From positions 116,779-180,778 of the forward strand of contig NZ_NCSM01000014.1 in NCBI RefSeq assembly GCF_002224125.1: a stretch of 64,000 nt of DNA, written 5' to 3'. A program made the translations under genes and the position numbers. Position 1 is the stretch's first letter. Each line of letters opens with the position of its first letter. Shown here in pieces: positions 33,798-41,703 of this stretch. The notes beneath the pieces are model-generated. The model saw only the letters and a program-made list of their open reading frames with translations, was not told the origin of the DNA and searched no databases. This DNA is from Streptomyces sp. NBS 14/10 (GTDB lineage: Bacteria > Actinomycetota > Actinomycetes > Streptomycetales > Streptomycetaceae).

Positions 33798-33986
33798 ACT
33801 TCTCTTCCCTTGCTCTTCTCGTAGCTCAGGCCGCCGCCGGCAGGCTGAGGTCCTGCCGTCAGCGGACCCTGAGGAGGAAAGCCCTCCGAGCGGGCACAGC
33901 ACGGTGCCACTGGTGAAGGGGTCGTGCAGCTGTTGCCGCTGCCGAGGTTGATCAGCAGCGGAGCGGCGAGCGGTATGGAGGCCGGC

Positions 33987-34173
33987 TCAGGCGGCTTGAC
34001 CGAGGTCGGCGGCAGTCGGGGCCTGCTCGCGGAGCTGGGTGAAGTCGACGTTCAGCTTCGGGTCGTACGCCTTGGGCTGGATGCCGAGCTCGTGCGTGGA
34101 ATACTCGCCGAACCGGTTGATGTGCTCGGTCAGGTACGGCGAGATGCGGGCCAGCTCCTCCGGGCCCTGACCT
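33987..34173 (-). pseudogene. Tn3-family transposase, C-terminal remnant
   Basis: The minus strand encodes ELARISPYLTEHINRFGEYSTHELGIQPKAYDPKLNVDFTQLREQ and a stop at 33987. This looks like the extreme C-terminus of an actinobacterial Tn3-family TnpA (recalled pattern: SPYLTEHIxRFGxYxTHELGI). Nothing upstream on the same strand continues the protein, and terminal inverted repeats were not found. It is a scar of a transposon at the edge of the TetR cassette. Confidence 0.65.
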
Positions 34174-34187
34174 CCTCCTCCGGGCGC

Positions 34188-34234
34188 TTGCCGTTGAAAA
34201 CCGATCGGTGTACGTTTGGGAAACCGAACGGTTT
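34188..34234 (+). promoter_or_regulatory. Promoter with two AAACCGATCGGTTT-type operators (NmrA-like gene)
   Basis: -35 TTGCCG (34188-34193), a 17-bp spacer and -10 TACGTT (34211-34216). Operator 1, AAACCGATCGGTGT (34198-34211), fills the spacer and its last T is the first base of the -10. Operator 2, AAACCGAACGGTTT (34221-34234), covers the likely start of transcription. Start-to-start spacing is 23 bp. Confidence 0.8.
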
Positions 34235-34295
34235 TCCCGGGAGTTTCGCATACTGCTACTGATGGCTGCGTGCTCAACCTCTGGAGTCGAAAGCC

Positions 34296-35390
34296 ATGTC
34301 TTCTCACGCCACCTCCACTATCTTTGTCATCGGCGGCACAGGGGCTCAAGGGATGCGCATCGTCCGCGCTCTTGTCGCCGACAAGAAGTACTCTGTCCGA
34401 GTCCTCACCCGCGATTCCGCCTCCCCTCGAGCCCAGGCCCTCCTCGCGCTCGGCAATGTCTCCATCCTCGAAGGGTCATTCGCCGACGAAGACGTGCCCC
34501 GGGAGGGATTTAGCAGCTGTGACGGGGCATTCATCAACATCGACGGGTTCAACACCGGCGAGAAGGCCGAGACCTACTGGGCCATACGCAGTTACGAGAT
34601 AGCGATTGAATAAGGAATCAAGTTCTTCGTCTACGGGAATCTGGACTACGTCCTCAAGAAGTCCGGCTACGACTCCAGGTTCCGCACCGGCCACTATGAC
34701 GGCAAAGGCCGCATGGCTGAATGGGTACTGTTCCAAAACGAAAAGAACAGGGACAGGATGGGAGCGGCGGTCTTCACTTCAGGTCCCTACATGGACATGG
34801 TGATCTCACCGCTCACGCCCATGACACCCTCCGTCGAGGACGGTGTCGTCACGTGGCGAGTCCCACTCGGTAAGGGAGCCGTTCCCCACGTGGATCTCGA
34901 AGATTGCGGATTCTACGTTCGCTGGCTCTTCGACCATCCAGAGCGGGCGAGTGGCATGGACCTCGAAGTCGCTATCGAGCACGTGGCCTATGCCGATATG
35001 GCTGCGGCATTCGAGAAGGTCACCGGGCATCGGGCACAGTACATCGACACTGATCTGAACACATATTGGAGCGGTCCGCTGAAGGAGGTTGCCGATCTCC
35101 CTGCCGGATATAACGCCGATCCCAACGACAAGGCCACCATGAGCTTCAGGGACAATTTCACGGGATTCTGGAATGTGTGGAAGCATGGAATCGTCACCAG
35201 GGATTACGCTCTGCTCGACGAAATTCACCCCAACAGGATCCGAAGTGCTGAGGAGTGGTTCCGCCGAGAAGGCCAGGCGGGACGAGACCTCGGTAAGGGA
35301 AGTCTCTGGGAGAGGGTACAGCCGGAGAACTGGAGCATCGACTCTGCGGTGCTCAAGAGCAGTGCGGATATGAGGAAGGGCAAGTTGTAA
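34296..35390 (+). pseudogene. NmrA-like NAD(P)-binding protein with an in-frame stop
   Basis: One open frame of 364 codons is broken only by TAA at 34611-34613 (after ...SYEIAIE, before GIKFFVYGNLDYV). The N-terminal part has the nucleotide-binding motif IFVIGGTGAQGMRIVRALV; the C-terminal part (DLEVAIEHVAYADMAAAFEKVTGH, GFWNVWKHG, RDYALLDEIHPNRIRSAEEWFRRE) looks like fungal NmrA-like proteins. GC content is clearly lower than in neighbouring genes. Both parts could still be made as fragments (an ATG exists at 34713), but loss of function is likelier, or a base-call error. The promoter carries two operators of the local TetR regulon. Confidence 0.8.
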
Positions 35391-35902
35391 ACGGGTGAGC
35401 GGCAATACGGCCGTGCGTGCTGTCGGAGTGGGCCGTCGGCGGGGTGACCGAGACGCGACAGGGCGGCGTCGGTGCCCCGGTTCGCCGTATCCCCGCGCCC
35501 CGCGGCAGCGCGGCCGGGGCCTTCGAATGACTACCGCTCGCGGCGTCGAGGTGCAGTCGGCGGATGACCGGCGGCTGGCAGCCCCCGGCGAAGTGCTCCG
35601 TAGCCTCCTGGTCCGGCGGCGACAGGGCTGACGGCGGGCGGGCCTGCTCGCTGGGGTGCGAGTCGGCGTCTTGGATTTGAACGTGGAAACCGATCGGTTT
35701 ACGATGAGATTGAAACCGACCGGTTTTCCGTGTTGACGGTGGTCTGAGCGTGATCTGGGAGCCGTCGCCGACGGCGGACGGTCAGGAGTGCATTGTCCTC
35801 AGGCGACCGTGTGCGCCGGGGGTTTCTGAGGGTCGCCGGCCTGCAATGGCGCTGTCCGGTCTCCTCCTGATGCGGCTGTGCTGTCGAGACCGGAGTCAAG
35901 TC
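35391..35902. other. Intergenic region before the DUF3533 gene
   Basis: 512 bp. The first 280 bp are GC-rich and have open frames but no recognisable product or ribosome binding site. The rest is the control region and a roughly 190-nt 5' leader of the DUF3533 gene, including the promoter listed separately. Confidence 0.5.
35677..35726 (+). promoter_or_regulatory. Promoter with two AAACCGATCGGTTT-type operators (DUF3533 gene)
   Basis: -35 TTGAAC (35677-35682), 17-bp spacer, -10 TACGAT (35700-35705). Operator 1, AAACCGATCGGTTT (35687-35700), ends on the first base of the -10. Operator 2, AAACCGACCGGTTT (35713-35726), lies over the start of transcription, 26 bp on. Both are perfect 14-bp palindromes. 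Confidence 0.85.
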
Positions 35903-37195
35903 ATGACTGGGATTCACCCCTTCCGTGTATTGCGCGCCAAACCCCTGTGGATCGCCAATGGCGTCATCACGGGCGTTCTCGCCCTGCTGTTCACCGTGTT
36001 CTACGTCGGTGCCAACATCGATCCGGTCGATCACCTGAAGAACCTGCCCGTCGGCCTGGTCAACACCGACAAGGGGGCCGCCGTGGGCGGCAAGAAGGTC
36101 AACCTGGGGGCGCAGATCACCGAGTCGATCAAGAAGTCCGCTGCGAGCGGGGGCAAGATCGACTGGAAGACGATGGACGAGAAGAAGGTGAAGGAGGAGC
36201 TGGGCGAGGGCAAGCTGTACGGCGCGCTCGTCGTCCCCGCCGACTTCACGGCCTCCGCCACCACGCTGACCGGCACCGCGACCACCGGGACCCCGGCTCG
36301 CCCGACCCTGACGGTGCTGACCAACCAGTCCGCCGGCAGCCTGGGCTCCAGCCTGGCCCGGTCGGCGACGACGCAGGCGGCCGAGAGCGCCTCGCTCCAG
36401 GTGGGCAAGGAACTGACCGCACGGGCCGGGCAGGCGAAGCTGCCCGCCGCGGCGCGCGTCATGCTGGCCGATCCGGCCGCCGTCACGGTCAAGGACGGCC
36501 ATCCTCTCGCCTCGCACAGCGGCCTGGGGCTGACGGCGTTCTACTACGCGCTCGTCCTGGTGGTCTGCGGCATGCTCTCCGCCAACGTCATCAGTGGGCA
36601 GGTGGACCACGCTCTCGGCTACACCCACAACGACATGGGCCCGCTGCGCCGACACCGCCCGCTGATCTGGGCGACCCGGGTGCAGACGCTCGCCGTCGGC
36701 AGCACCCTCATGGTCGGCCTGTCCCTGCTGATGGGCACCCTGGTCACCGTGGGTGCGGTCGGCATCATGGGCATGGCTGCCTCCCACCTGCCGCTGCTGT
36801 GGCTGTACTCGGTGTGTGTCATCGCGGTCTCCGGGATTGGTGCGCTCACTCTCCTGGCCGTCTTCGGCACGCCCGGCATGCTGGTGGTCACGCTGGTCTT
36901 CATCGGTATGGCGGTGCCGACGGCCGGCGCCACCACGCCCATCGAGGCGCTGCCCGGCTTCTACCGCTTCCTGGCGGAGTTCGAGCCGCTGCGGCAGATC
37001 ACCGGCGGCGTCCGCTCGATCCTCTACTACGACGCCCAGGCCGACGCCGGTCTGACCCGGGGCTGGGTGATGATGGCCGCCGGCCTCATGGCGGCCGCGC
37101 TGTTCGGCTTCGGCGTGACGGGCTGGTACGACCGCAGGGGGCTGCACCGTATCCCCGCCCAGGCGAACCCCGAGAAGACCGCCGCCCTGGCGTAG
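35903..37195 (+). CDS. YhgE/Pip-like DUF3533 (ABC-2-type) membrane protein
   Basis: 430 aa. TM1 (about 17-39), then a roughly 170-aa extracytoplasmic domain (NIDPVDHLKNLPVGLVNTDKGAAVGGKKVNLG ... LYGALVVPADFTASATTLTG), then about five TM helices between 210 and 410 (GLTAFYYALVLVVCGMLSANVI ...). This is the layout of YhgE/Pip and SNG1-like proteins, linked to phage infection, type VII secretion or export of toxic compounds; I cannot choose between these. Start ATG 35903 with CGGAG upstream matches the family N-terminus; a longer frame from 35750 is less likely. It is under the local TetR operator pair. Confidence 0.85.
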   Translation: MTGIHPFRVLRAKPLWIANGVITGVLALLFTVFYVGANIDPVDHLKNLPVGLVNTDKGAAVGGKKVNLGAQITESIKKSAASGGKIDWKTMDEKKVKEELGEGKLYGALVVPADFTASATTLTGTATTGTPARPTLTVLTNQSAGSLGSSLARSATTQAAESASLQVGKELTARAGQAKLPAAARVMLADPAAVTVKDGHPLASHSGLGLTAFYYALVLVVCGMLSANVISGQVDHALGYTHNDMGPLRRHRPLIWATRVQTLAVGSTLMVGLSLLMGTLVTVGAVGIMGMAASHLPLLWLYSVCVIAVSGIGALTLLAVFGTPGMLVVTLVFIGMAVPTAGATTPIEALPGFYRFLAEFEPLRQITGGVRSILYYDAQADAGLTRGWVMMAAGLMAAALFGFGVTGWYDRRGLHRIPAQANPEKTAALA

Positions 37196-37246
37196 CGGAT
37201 CCGCGCCGTCGCGCTGGCAGCACCGCTGTCCCGGCCGACCGGCCGG

Positions 37247-37265
37247 AAACCGATCGGTTTATATT
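37247..37265 (+). promoter_or_regulatory. TetR autoregulatory promoter with one AAACCGATCGGTTT
   Basis: The perfect palindrome at 37247-37260 ends on the first T of a -10 element TATATT (37260-37265), the same geometry as in the other three promoters. The -35 region is poor. No clear second operator is present; CCCGAATCGGG at 37269-37279 may be a degenerate one. Confidence 0.75.
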
Positions 37266-37292
37266 TTTCCCGAATCGGGTTAACCTCGCAGT

Positions 37293-37862
37293 ATGAGCAC
37301 CGAAGTGAAGGCAAGTCCCCGAGAGCGGCTTCTTACGGCGGCGGCCACGCTCACCTACCGAGACGGCGTCGGCATCGGCATCGAGGCGCTGTGCAAGGCG
37401 GCGGGGGTGTCGAAGCGCTCCATGTACCAGCTGTTCGAGAGCAAGGATGAACTGCTGGCGGCAAGCCTGGAGCAACGCGCTTCCACCTTCGTGACGACAC
37501 TCCTGCCCGCAGCGGACGATGGCCGTACACCCCGCGAGCGGATCCTGTATGTCTTCGAGCAGGTGGAATCGCAGGCTGGTGCGCCCGAGTTCCGGGGCTG
37601 TCGGTATCTGGCTGTCCAGATCGAGCTCAAGGATCAGAGTCACCCCGCGAGCCAGGTGGCCCACCGGATCAAGGGAAACCTGACGGCCTTCTTCCGGGCC
37701 GAGGCCGAACAGGGCGGTGCGAGCGATCCCGACCTGCTGGCCCGACAGCTCAGCCTGGTCTTCGACGGCGCCAGCGCCCGCGCGGGGATCGGGGCCGACA
37801 ACCTCACCGGGCTCATCGCCCCCACGGTGGCCACCCTGCTCGATGCGGCAGGGGTGCGCTGA
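37293..37862 (+). CDS. TetR-family regulator of the local operator regulon
   Basis: 189 aa. The helix-turn-helix is RERLLTAAATLTYRDGVGIGIEALCKAAGVSKRSMYQLFESKDELLAASLE (about 10-60); the C-terminal half includes APEFRGCRYLAVQIELKDQSHPASQVA, typical of AcrR-type regulators beside SDR or NmrA genes. Its own promoter and four neighbouring genes carry the palindrome AAACCGATCGGTTT or a close variant, so it is the obvious candidate to bind it as a repressor. The inducer is unknown; the Cys in the ligand domain and the redox enzymes around it would fit a reactive electrophile or quinone. Confidence 0.92.
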   Translation: MSTEVKASPRERLLTAAATLTYRDGVGIGIEALCKAAGVSKRSMYQLFESKDELLAASLEQRASTFVTTLLPAADDGRTPRERILYVFEQVESQAGAPEFRGCRYLAVQIELKDQSHPASQVAHRIKGNLTAFFRAEAEQGGASDPDLLARQLSLVFDGASARAGIGADNLTGLIAPTVATLLDAAGVR

Positions 37863-38037
37863 CGCATCACCTTTTCGAGCGGGCTCGGCGACCGATGCGC
37901 TCTCGGGGCTGACGCCCGCCTCCGGCGGCCGGAGCTGCCTGCATCTGCGTCAGCCGCGCGGATGGCACTCTCGCGTCTCTCCTGCGCGCCGATCGGGGCC
38001 ATGCTGCCCGCTTCCGGTCGGACGGCGCTCCCTGCAC

Positions 38038-38086
38038 TTGCACCTAGAAACCGATCGGTTTACCGTTGTTGGAAACCGATCGGTTT
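38038..38086 (+). promoter_or_regulatory. Promoter with two AAACCGATCGGTTT operators (SDR gene)
   Basis: -35 TTGCAC (38038-38043), 17-bp spacer, -10 TACCGT (38061-38066). Operator 1 (38048-38061) and operator 2 (38073-38086) are both perfect AAACCGATCGGTTT, 25 bp apart. Operator 1 again ends on the first base of the -10. Confidence 0.88.
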
Positions 38087-38110
38087 CTCAGTGAGGCTCA
38101 GGAGTCCATG

Positions 38111-38926
38111 ATGAGTACGCATCGGCCGGTGGCACTCGTGACGGGTGCGTCATCCGGCATCGGGAAGGCAGCCGCGTTCGCGCTGGTCGAAGCGGGGTTC
38201 GACGTGGTTGGCACAAGCCGCGACACCTCCCGCGTCACCCCGCCCCGCGGCGTGACCTTCCTCGACCTCGACGTGGCCGGTGACGCGTCTGCCACCGCCG
38301 TGGTCCAGCAGGTGATCGACCGCTTCGGGCGGATCGATGTCCTGGTCAACAACGCCGGCGTGGGCTTGATGGGTGCGGCCGAGGAGAACTCGGTCGCGCA
38401 GGCCCAGGCCGTCTTCAACGTCAACGTCTTCGGCGTGATGCGCATGGTGCAGGCGGTCCTGCCGCACATGCGCGCCCGTGGACGCGGACGCATCATCAAC
38501 CTCTCCTCCGTGGTCGGATTCCTCCCGTCGCCGTACATGGCCGTCTACGCCGCGTCCAAGCATGCGATCGAGGGGTACTCCCAGTCCCTGGACCATGAGA
38601 TCCGCGATTTCGGCGTCCGGGCGCTTCTCGTCGAACCCGCTTACACCAGTACCGGTTTCGAGGCCAACAGTCCGCGGCCCGACATGCCCCTGCAGGTCTA
38701 CGCCGCCCAGCGGCGCGCCTTCGACCGCATGATGGAAACAGCGATCAAGGACGGCGACGACCCCGCCGTCGTCGCCAAGGTGATCGTCACGGCGGCGACC
38801 GCCCCGAAGCCGAAGCTGCGCTACACCGCCGGTCCCCTGGCCGGACGCGCGAGCGCACTGCGCCGCCTCGCTCCTGCCGGGGTCTTCGACAAGCGGATCC
38901 GCAAGCTCAACCGGCTGGCCGGCTGA
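38111..38926 (+). CDS. Short-chain dehydrogenase/reductase
   Basis: 271 aa, classical SDR. TGASSGIG (11-18) binds the cofactor, NNAG lies at 80-83, and the catalytic residues are Ser132 or Ser133, Tyr146 and Lys150 (YAASK). The basic residues after the second strand (GTSRDTSR) suggest NADP(H). The substrate is unknown. ATG 38111 fits the GGAG spacing better than the ATG 3 bases upstream. Its promoter has the best operator pair of the local TetR regulon. Confidence 0.92.
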   Translation: MSTHRPVALVTGASSGIGKAAAFALVEAGFDVVGTSRDTSRVTPPRGVTFLDLDVAGDASATAVVQQVIDRFGRIDVLVNNAGVGLMGAAEENSVAQAQAVFNVNVFGVMRMVQAVLPHMRARGRGRIINLSSVVGFLPSPYMAVYAASKHAIEGYSQSLDHEIRDFGVRALLVEPAYTSTGFEANSPRPDMPLQVYAAQRRAFDRMMETAIKDGDDPAVVAKVIVTAATAPKPKLRYTAGPLAGRASALRRLAPAGVFDKRIRKLNRLAG

Positions 38927-38975
38927 CGCCTGCGGCCGGCTGCCGTAGGGCAAGCACACGCCCGTGATGGCCATG

Positions 38976-38989
38976 AAACTGATCGGTTT
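38976..38989 (+). promoter_or_regulatory. Single operator-like site AAACTGATCGGTTT
   Basis: One mismatch from the regulon palindrome, 19 bp before the start of the second SDR gene. No -10 element lines up with it, so the gene may be read through from the first SDR and the site may act as a roadblock or be a relic. Confidence 0.6.
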
Positions 38990-39008
38990 CCCGCTCTTGG
39001 GGGTAGTC

Positions 39009-39524
39009 GTGACAGCAATCGAAGGTGCCACCGTCCTCGTCACCGGAGGCGGCCGGGGTATCGGCAAGATGCTGGTCGAGGAGCTCTACGGGCGCGGCGC
39101 CGGCAAGGTCTACGCCACGGCCCGCGACCCGCGCACGGTGACGCACCCCGACGCCGTTCCGCTGGCTCTTGAGGTCACCGACCCCGCGTCCGTGACGGCC
39201 GCCGCCGAGCAGGCCCAGGACGTCACCATCCTGATCAACAGCGCCGGCGCCTCCAAGGCCGCCCTGTGGTCGCAGACCAACTCTCTGCGGCTGGAGCTGC
39301 GGCCGCGCGGCATCGCGGTGACCGGGCTCCACGTGGCCTACGTGGACACCGACATGACGTCGGGCCTCGACGCACCCAAGGCCGATCCCCGCGATGTCGC
39401 CGTGGCCGCCCTCGACGGCATCCAGGCGGGGGCCCACGAGGTGCTGGCCGACGACACCACCCGCTGGGTCAAGTCGCAGCTGTCCGCCGATCTGGAAGCC
39501 CTCTACCCGCGGCTGAACAACTAG
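39009..39524 (+). pseudogene. SDR with an internal in-frame deletion
   Basis: 171 codons from GTG 39009 (GGGGG upstream). The cofactor motif TGGGRGIGK (12-20) and the C-terminal half (NSLRLELRPRGIAVTGLHVAYVDTDM) are intact, but ILINSAGAS at about 80 is joined directly to SKAALWSQTNS. About 60 residues are missing, including the catalytic Ser and the Tyr of YxxxK. The join lies at the similar sequences AGAS and (YAA)SK, so a short-homology deletion is likely. The protein could still bind a cofactor but should not be an active reductase. Confidence 0.8.
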
Positions 39525-39554
39525 GACGCACTCACCGATTTCAAGGAAATTCTC

Positions 39555-40589
39555 GTGGAAAGTTCGCTCACCCACCGCTTCGTCGAAGTGAACGGAGTCA
39601 GACTGCACATCGCCGAGCAGGGGCAGGGGCCGCTGGTCCTGCTGCTGCACGGCTGGCCGGAGAGCTGGTACTCCTGGCGTCACCAGTTCGGGGCGCTGGC
39701 AGCGGCCGGGTACCGGGTCGTCGCCCCGGACCAGCGCGGCTACGCCCGCAGCGAGCAGCCGCCGGACGTCACCTCGTACACCCTGCTCCACCTCGTCGGC
39801 GACGTGATCGCCCTGATCGAGGAACTCGGCGAGGAGCAGGCGATCGTCGTGGGCCACGACTGGGGCGCACCCGTCGCCTGGACCGCGGCGATGCTGCGCC
39901 CCGACAAGGTCCGCGCGGTGGCCGGGCTCAGCATTCCGCCGATCCTGCCCGGCGGGATGGTCCCGCCCTCGATCACCCGCACCCAGTACGGCGATGGCTT
40001 CTATCAGGTCTACTTCCAGCAGCCGGGAGTAGCCGACGCCGAATTCGCCAAGGACATCCCGGAATCCTTCCGCCGCCTCCTGGTCGGTGCCTCGGGCGAC
40101 AACCCGCTCGGCAGGGAGCCCCGCCCGTTGGTCGTACCTGAGGGTCTGGGCTTCCTGGACACCATGCCGGAGTCGCCCGACCTCCCGGCCTGGCTGACGG
40201 AGGACGACATCCAGGCGTATGCCGAGGACTTCGCCCTCCACGGCGAGCGGGCCTTCACCGGAGCGTTCAACTGGTACCGGAACATCGAGCGGAACAACGA
40301 ACTGCTCGCCGTATTCCAGGGGCGCGGGATCGACGTCCCTGCGCTGTATGTGGTGGGAGACCGCGACATGGTCACCTCGTTGCGCAGCCCGGACGGGGGC
40401 AGCTCGCTGAGCGAATTGCTCCGGGGTGAGGGCGGGTCGGGCAACCCGCTGAGCGCTGTCGCGCCTCAACTGCACGACGTGGTGGTGCTTCCGGGCTGCG
40501 GGCATTGGACGCAGCAGGAGCGCCCCGCGGAGACCAACGCCGCGCTCCTGGACTTCCTCGCCCACATCGACGGCGCTTCGCCCCGATGA
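39555..40589 (+). CDS. Alpha/beta-hydrolase, epoxide hydrolase type
   Basis: 344 aa. HGWPESWYSWRHQ (32-44) is the HGXP oxyanion motif; Asp102 in VVGHDWGAPVAW is the nucleophile, which marks epoxide hydrolases and dehalogenases rather than esterases (Ser). The catalytic His is in PGCGHWTQQERP near the C-terminus. It probably opens epoxides to diols. GTG 39555 follows AAGGAAA, 30 bp after the SDR remnant, so it may be the last gene of that transcript. It also neighbours an NmrA-type NAD(P) protein. Confidence 0.88.
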   Translation: MESSLTHRFVEVNGVRLHIAEQGQGPLVLLLHGWPESWYSWRHQFGALAAAGYRVVAPDQRGYARSEQPPDVTSYTLLHLVGDVIALIEELGEEQAIVVGHDWGAPVAWTAAMLRPDKVRAVAGLSIPPILPGGMVPPSITRTQYGDGFYQVYFQQPGVADAEFAKDIPESFRRLLVGASGDNPLGREPRPLVVPEGLGFLDTMPESPDLPAWLTEDDIQAYAEDFALHGERAFTGAFNWYRNIERNNELLAVFQGRGIDVPALYVVGDRDMVTSLRSPDGGSSLSELLRGEGGSGNPLSAVAPQLHDVVVLPGCGHWTQQERPAETNAALLDFLAHIDGASPR

Positions 40590-40695
40590 CGCGGGCGTAG
40601 ACGCCCCAGGCGACCGAAGCGGCCCAAGGCGATCGCAGGTCACATCCCGTGGCTTCCCTACGGCTGACCCACCCAACCAGACAGAGGAATGATCG

Positions 40696-41670
40696 ATGTC
40701 AGAGCGCAATCCCATCCTGATCACCGGAGCCGCCGGCCATATCGGTGGTGTGAGCCGAACGATCGTCGACATGCTGCTTGAACAAGGCCACCCGGTACGC
40801 GCGTTCGTGCGGCAGGACGACGAACGCGCGCAGGCGCTCCGCCAGGCCGGGGCCGAGGTCTTCGTCGGAGACCTGCTCACCATCGCTGATGTGACAGCCG
40901 CGCTGAAGGGCGTCCGGCGCGTCTACTTCAGCATGAGCCTGTCGCCGTACTACACCGACGCCGTCAGCCTGATGGCCGCGGCGGCGCGGGCACAGGGTGA
41001 CATCGAGGTCTTCGTCAACATGTCCGAATTCGAGCAGTCGTTCATGACGTTCGAGAAGATGACCGCGCCGGACGGAGAACGGCGTTCATGGCTCGGCGGA
41101 CTCGTCGCGGACTGGTCGCCGCAGCAGCGCGCCCACTGGGTCGCCGAGCGGCTGCTGGAGTGGTCCGGCCTCCCGACCGTCAACATCCGGGCGGCCATGT
41201 TCGTGGAGAACCCCCTGATGACCTGGCTGGCGCTGGGCCCGCTGAGCAACGGTGAGCTGCGCCTGCCCTTCGGCCACCACCGGCTCGCGCCCATCGCGGG
41301 TTACGACGTGGCGGAGGCGTGCGCGAAGATCCTGGCCGATCCGGCGCCGCACATCTCGAAGTCCTACGAACTCAACGGCCCTGAACTGAAGGACATGCAC
41401 GGCTTCGCGGAGGACTTCGCGGCCGTGCTGGGACGCCAGGTCACCTACGTTCCCGAAGAGGTCGAAACCTGGAACGAGACCTACGTGGACCCTGCCCTGG
41501 CCGAGTTTCCGCACACCGCGGAGCACATGAAGACCCTGACCCGGCTGATCGGCGGCGGCGGGTACCGCGGTGTCACCGACCAGCTCGAAACCCTCCTCGG
41601 GCGTGCGCCGAAGACCGTGCGGTGGGCGCTCGAGAACCATCCGCGCATCCAGAAGCTGGCAGCTGCCTGA
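40696..41670 (+). CDS. NmrA/HSCARG-family NAD(P)-binding protein
   Basis: 324 aa. PILITGAAGHIGGVSRTIVDMLLEQGHPVRAFVRQDDERAQAL is an atypical-SDR Rossmann start with the Arg that favours NADP(H). Later parts (FVNMSEFEQSFMTFEK, PTVNIRAAMFVENPLMTWL, HRLAPIAGYDVAEACAKIL) match NmrA-like quinone-reductase or redox-sensor proteins such as QorB. It lacks the SDR YxxxK pair. ATG 40696 follows AGAGGAATG. No operator of the TetR regulon precedes it. A hairpin terminator follows the gene. Confidence 0.88.
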   Translation: MSERNPILITGAAGHIGGVSRTIVDMLLEQGHPVRAFVRQDDERAQALRQAGAEVFVGDLLTIADVTAALKGVRRVYFSMSLSPYYTDAVSLMAAAARAQGDIEVFVNMSEFEQSFMTFEKMTAPDGERRSWLGGLVADWSPQQRAHWVAERLLEWSGLPTVNIRAAMFVENPLMTWLALGPLSNGELRLPFGHHRLAPIAGYDVAEACAKILADPAPHISKSYELNGPELKDMHGFAEDFAAVLGRQVTYVPEEVETWNETYVDPALAEFPHTAEHMKTLTRLIGGGGYRGVTDQLETLLGRAPKTVRWALENHPRIQKLAAA

Positions 41671-41703
41671 GCCGCCGAGCTGGACCCGGCGCCGCCTACG
41701 CGA

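Follow-up and report, generated by a model that had tools for sequence, protein, structure and literature searches.

A 4.8-kb segment (positions 34188–38989) of a 64,000-nucleotide stretch of Streptomyces sp. NBS 14/10 DNA (contig NZ_NCSM01000014.1; hereafter the window) carries the palindrome AAACCGATCGGTTT again and again in front of its genes, which raises the question of which regulator reads it and for what purpose. A preliminary description of the segment had counted eight copies and had proposed that the TetR-family protein encoded at 37293 represses a self-contained set of five targets: an NmrA-like gene, a DUF3533 membrane protein gene, tetR itself and two short-chain dehydrogenase (SDR) genes, SDR1 and SDR2. 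We consider it probable, at roughly 85%, that this TetR is the autorepressor of a modular detoxification set whose target genes carry paired operators.

All eight copies were found at the positions first given for them, each with 0–1 mismatch to AAACCGATCGGTTT (Table 1). When up to 3 mismatches were allowed, the window contained 11 matches against 0.79 expected (mean of 100 shuffles; shuffle maximum 3). A scan of the 12.1-Mb genome, suggested in the preliminary description, located nine places with 0–1 mismatch, eight of them inside the 4.8 kb, and 10 additional places at 2 mismatches; at up to 2 mismatches a control pattern read backwards matched once, against 19 times for the true pattern. 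The promoter geometry described below was absent at all 6 of the two-mismatch places that were examined. The ninth site (within L166:7688-7814; contig 39 of the same genome; L numbers denote loci of our survey) is perfect, overlaps the final 2 bp of an SDR gene (PF00106, E 6e-36) and adjoins an apparent decayed remnant of the same TetR (28-residue match, 68% identity).

Across Streptomyces, the TetR (E <= 1e-40) is encoded in 84 of 295 genomes, several of which have two or more paralogues. The exact palindrome was present in 81 of these 84 genomes as against 8 of the 211 without the TetR (Fisher p 6e-59, a value that overstates the evidence since related genomes are treated as independent). 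Among the three TetR genomes devoid of the exact palindrome, one has a TetR with an internal stop, one a partial TetR and one a TetR that is 73% identical. Within 128 non-duplicate loci (2.05 Mb, the window included; 3 duplicates dropped), 544 sites with at most 1 mismatch were observed and none on the reversed sequence. Five altered palindromes gave 0 matches each when counted with an exact central hexamer, a stricter count by which the true pattern gives 409. The operator starts 46 bp before tetR in 116 of the 128 loci and 45, 47 or 53 bp before it in five; in the remaining 7 it was not found at 40–56 bp. The palindrome is thus enriched near orthologous tetR genes, and it also stands, with the same geometry, before their neighbours, as the preliminary description had expected. 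This comparison of genomes establishes, at the level of sequence, that regulator, operator and targets belong together, while repression of the whole set, as first proposed, is what the promoter geometry argues for.

In the NmrA, DUF3533 and SDR1 promoters of the window, the -35 and -10 elements follow the pattern TTGnnn-17-TAnnnT, the first T of the -10 being the last base of the upstream operator, and the second copy follows 23, 26 and 25 bp downstream, respectively. Both the 17-bp spacing in the three best promoters and the second copy 23–26 bp on in three of four promoters had been described correctly. The tetR promoter has a single site, from whose last T (37260) a -10-like TATATT begins; the place of its -35 reads GACCGG. 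The view that the upstream copy ends on the first T of the -10 holds for the four window promoters and for most target groups in relatives, but it fails for tetR: only 6 of 116 tetR promoters have TAnnnT at the site end and 0 of 116 have TTG at 17 bp, and so the four-promoter geometry is right for the window and not conserved for tetR. Downstream of the operator, the window tetR leader (37271-37290, with CCCGAATCGGG) contains TCG[A/G]GTTAACCTC within CCCGAATCGGGTTAACCTC. This segment is strongly conserved in 100 tetR promoters (9 duplicate loci dropped from this analysis) and may represent a degenerate second operator.

The number of operators distinguishes the regulator from its targets. The 128 loci contain 359 operator clusters (clusters without any 0–1-mismatch site being left out), 208 of them pairs and 151 single, assigned to genes from a simple home-made caller whose gene starts are uncertain. 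The ratio of single to double operators was 127/7 for tetR (134 of 140 genes operator-linked), 1/49 for SDR1 (50 of 62), 4/53 for SDR2 (57 of 61), 1/19 for alpha/beta hydrolase genes (20 of 49), 0/26 for QueG-like genes (26 of 35), 2/10 for DUF3533 genes (12 of 34), 1/17 for MFS genes (18 of 21) and 1/25 for genes of a second TetR (26 of 33). One canonical site for the regulator and, in most cases, two for a target is thus the rule, which the preliminary description did not contain. The two copies lie 22–26 bp apart in 198 of the 208 pairs (24 bp in 132) and 30–33 bp apart in the other 10. TAnnnT starts on the final base of the upstream operator in 49/49 SDR1, 53/58 SDR2, 26/27 QueG-like, 19/22 hydrolase and 10/10 DUF3533 promoters. 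When the 221 paired promoters are taken together, it occurs at this place in 159 and at +5 in 19, and the nine other offsets (-3 to +7) gave 0.

The spacing of 30–33 bp was seen in L081, L082, L084, L085 and L221–L223. The TetRs of these loci form a more distant clade (~64% identity in L081–L085) that occurs with the same operator and SDR2; L080 has a pair spacing of 24 bp, and L083 has no 0–1-mismatch site.

The regulator itself has a TetR_N helix-turn-helix (PF00440, 33.6 bits, cut-off 24) and none of the 11 named TetR equivalogs listed in NCBIfam (among them DicD, BetI, ScbR, MtrR and KstR) scores above its cut-off, examples being DicD with 37.1 bits (cut-off 240) and ScbR with 23.4 bits (cut-off 150). 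Its closest solved structure is PDB 3JSJ (residues 1–187, E 8.5e-99, 331 bits), a close orthologue titled only 'Putative TetR-family transcriptional regulator', and we found no paper naming 3JSJ in the open-access library searched, nor did we meet an operator or regulon ascribed to it. In 135 TetRs (5 of 140 proteins were dropped as shorter than 170 aa) the stretch SKRS[M/L]Y, which we take to be the recognition-helix region, is invariant, and the portion beyond the DNA-binding region is also well conserved (mean 0.88). A single-sequence structure prediction of the TetR had a pLDDT of 50 and was not used.

In relatives the regulon is wider, and its operator-linked gene groups recur in varying order and combination. 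Additional groups are an MFS exporter, a second TetR and a QueG-like 4Fe-4S protein. The second TetR is smaller (161 aa on average; 33 genes) and lies beside sites in many relatives; at L152:4343-4864, for example, it is tail to tail with the main tetR, and its double operator is often shared with a divergent neighbour such as SDR1. The QueG/reductive-dehalogenase-like protein (L113:5413-6513 and 19 aligned relatives) is often found behind double operators. At E <= 1e-6, 20 of 20 such proteins match QueG and 8 of 20 match RDH, and the members shown stay below the curated cut-offs (QueG 50–58 bits, cut-off 200; RDH 30–43 bits, cut-off 160). The top Foldseek matches were PceA (E 1.6e-5) and then QueG, with a TM of about 0.30 and an rmsd of 11–14 Å. 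They come from a poor model (mean pLDDT 50, built from 20 aligned rows), and so this predicted likeness of fold is only a hint. The forms in L087, L104, L121 and L149 have a longer C-terminal end, and that of L087, the only long form among the two proteins scanned against Pfam, contains an SCP2 lipid-binding domain.

We also analyzed 20 further palindrome places fetched from the genome listing, which are not a random draw. Four of them (L214 and L221–L223) have a TetR-group match, a fragment in L214, and SDR2 beside the sites. The other 16 are devoid of the TetR in the fetched stretch, and at 13 of these the palindrome precedes the same gene families (in L209, a weak hydrolase match followed by a second NmrA-like gene, NmrA2); at L206, L212 and L219 it does not. 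The presence of sites before the same families away from tetR means that the regulon can reach beyond the vicinity of tetR. Hence the term self-contained describes this genome, except for the one perfect site beside the tetR remnant, but not the relatives, where sites also occur without tetR in the 5–8 kb fetched.

From these data we propose the following mechanism. A TetR dimer would bind AAACCGATCGGTTT; the single operator before tetR would serve autoregulation, and in target promoters the two operators of a pair, separated by some two helical turns, would block RNA polymerase, the upstream copy filling the -35/-10 spacer and taking in the first T of the -10 while the downstream copy lies over the start region. 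Release of TetR would be brought about by a small compound, lipophilic or electrophilic, upon which SDR1, the DUF3533 membrane protein, the first NmrA gene and SDR2 together with an epoxide hydrolase and NmrA2 would be co-induced for detoxification. We infer repression rather than activation because the upstream operator occupies the spacer and the -10. The gene set suggests that an electrophilic or lipophilic compound is detoxified, the role and the type of inducer being read from the enzyme families (epoxide hydrolase, SDRs, NmrA reductases and exporters).

Several observations weigh against this reading. The epoxide hydrolase is the first gene behind a site in 1 of 14 cases (a double one) and NmrA2 in 0 of 27; both usually follow other genes, so that their control depends on assumed operons. 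The -10 rule was not followed by the MFS promoters (0/21), nor does TAnnnT point towards the second TetR gene in the pairs next to it (0/25). Of the 359 clusters, 14 have no called gene within 300 bp, and the window NmrA pair is counted there because the caller missed the broken NmrA gene. Eight genomes that lack the TetR hold one exact palindrome each. Two window targets are broken, and induction may be of little benefit in this strain. Finally, the target families vary in relatives, and so a single metabolic purpose is not fixed.

In the foremost alternative, the same TetR–operator circuit would serve the metabolism or signalling of an endogenous compound, such as a secondary metabolite or a lipid intermediate, and not defence against outside toxins. 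The solved structures that SDR1 matches best, after a putative dehydrogenase, belong to 17-beta-hydroxysteroid dehydrogenases and ketoacyl reductases; NmrA2 has a weak match to the polyketide ketoreductase SimC7 (E 2.7e-6), the scanned QueG-like relative of L087 has its lipid-binding domain, and the conservation of TetR beyond the DNA-binding region fits one fixed ligand. We nevertheless regard this alternative as unlikely, though it deserves serious attention, since exporters, epoxide hydrolase and QueG-like protein recur in differing combinations and the patchy spread (23 of 394 genomes at class level) is what an accessory trait of defence would show. It is highly improbable that TetR works as an activator or has another mode of action where sites are paired. 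Activators do exist in this family, AtrA having raised its neighbour's promoter 4-fold according to PMC3511530, and the lack of -10 overlap in MFS promoters would agree with activation, but an upstream operator overlapping the -10 in 159 of 221 paired promoters should block polymerase. A still smaller chance is left to the idea that the palindromes belong to another regulator and are merely near this tetR; the smaller second TetR speaks for this, with 26 of its 33 genes operator-linked, yet no member of its group was called in the clustered 20 kb of the window, where the sites are present, and the palindrome tracks the main TetR across the 295 genomes at a fixed place before tetR. Although CG-rich palindromes can recur in high-GC genomes and this genome has ten two-mismatch places, we reject chance, general abundance of such palindromes or a repeat-element artefact as virtually excluded by the shuffles, the 295-genome association, the reversed and altered controls of the 128 loci and the six two-mismatch places that lack the promoter geometry.

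Some genes of the locus (Table 1) are damaged.

Table 1. Operators, promoters and genes of the TetR locus in window coordinates.
Feature	Position	Strand	Basis or remark
Operator copy 1, NmrA promoter, AAACCGATCGGTGT	34198..34211	+	1 mismatch
Operator copy 2, NmrA promoter, AAACCGAACGGTTT	34221..34234	+	1 mismatch
Operator copy 1, DUF3533 promoter, perfect	35687..35700	+	pattern match
Operator copy 2, DUF3533 promoter, AAACCGACCGGTTT	35713..35726	+	1 mismatch
Single operator, tetR promoter, perfect, starts 46 bp before ATG	37247..37260	+	pattern match
Operator copy 1, SDR1 promoter, perfect	38048..38061	+	pattern match
Operator copy 2, SDR1 promoter, perfect	38073..38086	+	pattern match
Remaining operator, SDR2 promoter, AAACTGATCGGTTT	38976..38989	+	1 mismatch; alignment with L046, L088
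NmrA promoter: TTGCCG (34188-34193), 17 bp, TACGTT (34211-34216)	34188..34216	+	direct reading
DUF3533 promoter: TTGAAC (35677), 17 bp, TACGAT (35700-35705)	35677..35705	+	direct reading
SDR1 promoter: TTGCAC (38038), 17 bp, TACCGT (38061-38066)	38038..38066	+	direct reading
NmrA-like NAD(P)-binding gene, interrupted	34296..35390	+	in-frame TAA at 34611; GC 58.1% vs window 70.6%
DUF3533 / YhgE-Pip family membrane protein	35903..37195	+	Pfam DUF3533 E 7e-55
TetR-family regulator, 189 aa	37293..37862	+	PF00440 TetR_N E 3e-8; 3JSJ E 8.5e-99
SDR1, short-chain dehydrogenase, PRK06179 group	38108..38926	+	NCBIfam PRK06179 399 bits, cut-off 310
SDR2, short-chain dehydrogenase nearest PRK08264 group, internally deleted	39009..39524	+	244 bits, cut-off 249
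Epoxide hydrolase, EphA-like alpha/beta hydrolase, next after SDR2	39555..40589	+	5CW2 (EphA) E 5e-78
Second NmrA-like NAD(P)-binding protein (NmrA2)	40696..41670	+	domain search; comparison with relatives

The C-terminal piece of the first NmrA gene has its closest relative at 94% identity (364 aa), and its named near relatives of 364–365 aa are from Parafrankia (94%), Streptomyces (88%) and Pseudarthrobacter (84%). The homologue in Streptomyces dysideae (L104; 90% identical) is also preceded by a double operator, whose first copy is the same variant as AAACCGATCGGTGT (GTGT ending) and whose second copy lies 25 bp on. The low GC content together with the close relatives elsewhere suggests that the first NmrA gene was acquired from outside. 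The start codon of the DUF3533 gene is uncertain (35750, 35846, 35870 or 35903); its product scores above the cut-off of TIGR03061 (98.8 bits, cut-off 96.15) and below that of TIGR03062 (32.6 bits, cut-off 102.2), and is a possible exporter component.

SDR2 is 171 aa long, whereas the genes called in its group have a median length of 233 aa. Alignment with six relatives revealed that one middle stretch is missing, in frame, between two GAS-coding places, and that the Tyr of YxxxK, which we take to be the SDR motif, is removed with it. The single variant site attributed to this fifth gene in the preliminary description is present, but the gene is damaged and the site is what remains of a pair, since it lines up with the downstream copy of L046 and L088, and the upstream copy is no longer recognisable. 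All five targets named there have operators, but two of them, SDR2 and the first NmrA gene, are damaged, and the response of this strain should therefore be only partly functional. The epoxide hydrolase matches solved EphA (5CW2) over residues 6–337 and reaches no NCBIfam cut-off. A regular-expression search found HGWP, GHDWG and GCGH in it, presumably the HGxP, nucleophile and His motifs of epoxide hydrolases. NmrA2 comes after SDR2 in several relatives and is a probable operon member.

The distribution of the TetR extends beyond Streptomyces. At E <= 1e-40, a survey at class level found it in 23 of 394 genomes and in 6 of 137 genera, this genome being counted, and one at family level found it in 40 of 121 genomes and in 6 of 17 genera; the loci matched in these two surveys were kept outside the locus analyses. 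The best 80 of 182 relatives, all named, are 84–95% identical and belong to Streptomyces, Nonomuraea, Actinomadura, Saccharothrix, Streptacidiphilus, Arthrobacter and a record titled Pseudonocardia eucalypti. In a quickly built tree of 88 tetR genes, the label Streptomyces has to change at least 5 times on strongly supported branches and 8 times in all, a pattern that fits exchange of tetR between genera. Plasmids were considered as a vehicle and not shown to be one: DNA of 33900-41700 is matched to some extent by 341 plasmid records, none of which covers 80% of it, and a TetR relative (E <= 1e-40) was found on one plasmid record, a 1.16-Mb Streptomyces chartreusis replicon (59.8% identity).

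Regulator and operator appear to travel jointly between genera while the controlled genes change. We tentatively suggest, with somewhat less than even confidence, a horizontally exchanged 'operator code' in actinomycetes, in which one strongly conserved TetR and one 14-bp operator would together form a plug-in standard of control. Different genes for the handling of electrophiles (SDRs, epoxide hydrolase, the QueG/reductive-dehalogenase-like Fe-S enzyme, MFS and DUF3533 exporters and foreign NmrA genes) would be recruited by gaining the fixed double-operator promoter, also away from tetR, and tetR would keep its single site. An orphan regulator with a solved close relative, 3JSJ, thereby gains a precise operator, a conserved promoter design and defined targets, so that screening for ligands and building a biosensor become straightforward; the analysis also offers a starting point for work on a group of QueG/reductive-dehalogenase-like proteins found in aerobic actinomycetes.

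How does this regulon compare with known systems? It has the familiar TetR-family trait, judged by sequence, of a palindromic operator at its own and neighbouring promoters. No description of the regulon was found in an open-access library, which omits most subscription papers, and within that scope the early statement that no described system combines this gene set and operator still stands. A match in PMC5481743 was to a primer. Identity with the SAV151, SAV576 or SCO7222 systems was ruled out by operator sequence (PMC10933834, PMC3742746, PMC3511530). SAV151 of Streptomyces avermitilis is a TetR repressor of a neighbouring cluster with a dehydrogenase and a hydrolase, and its binding sequences, as tabulated in the review PMC10933834, have TGACA/TGTCA half-sites, which the window sites (AAACCGATCGGTTT) do not have. 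SAV576 and the TetRs of divergent genes (Ahn et al. 2012) resemble the present case as Streptomyces TetRs with palindromic operators in enzyme or exporter promoters, but their operators are of the kind CCRTACRVYGTATGS and TGGAACGNCGTTCCA and they are described there with divergent neighbours, not with a multi-promoter set (PMC3742746, PMC3511530). TetR/TetA of Tn10 shares two operators, a ligand-released repressor and an exporter target, but there the 15-bp operators lie in one divergent intergenic region and serve a single exporter, whereas here the regulator has one site and each target two (PMC3511530). The nearest published operator that we found is that of TTHB023 (PfmR) of Thermus thermophilus, a TetR-family protein that binds CTGACCGATCGGTCAG with a KD of about 2 nM and whose described targets are fatty-acid biosynthesis genes (PMC7022988). 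Compared by operator and targets, it has the core ACCGATCGGT in common with the window sites, but the outer operator bases differ, it belongs to another phylum, and the window targets are of other families. We conclude that the locus represents a new regulon of the TetR family, very well supported as a regulatory unit.

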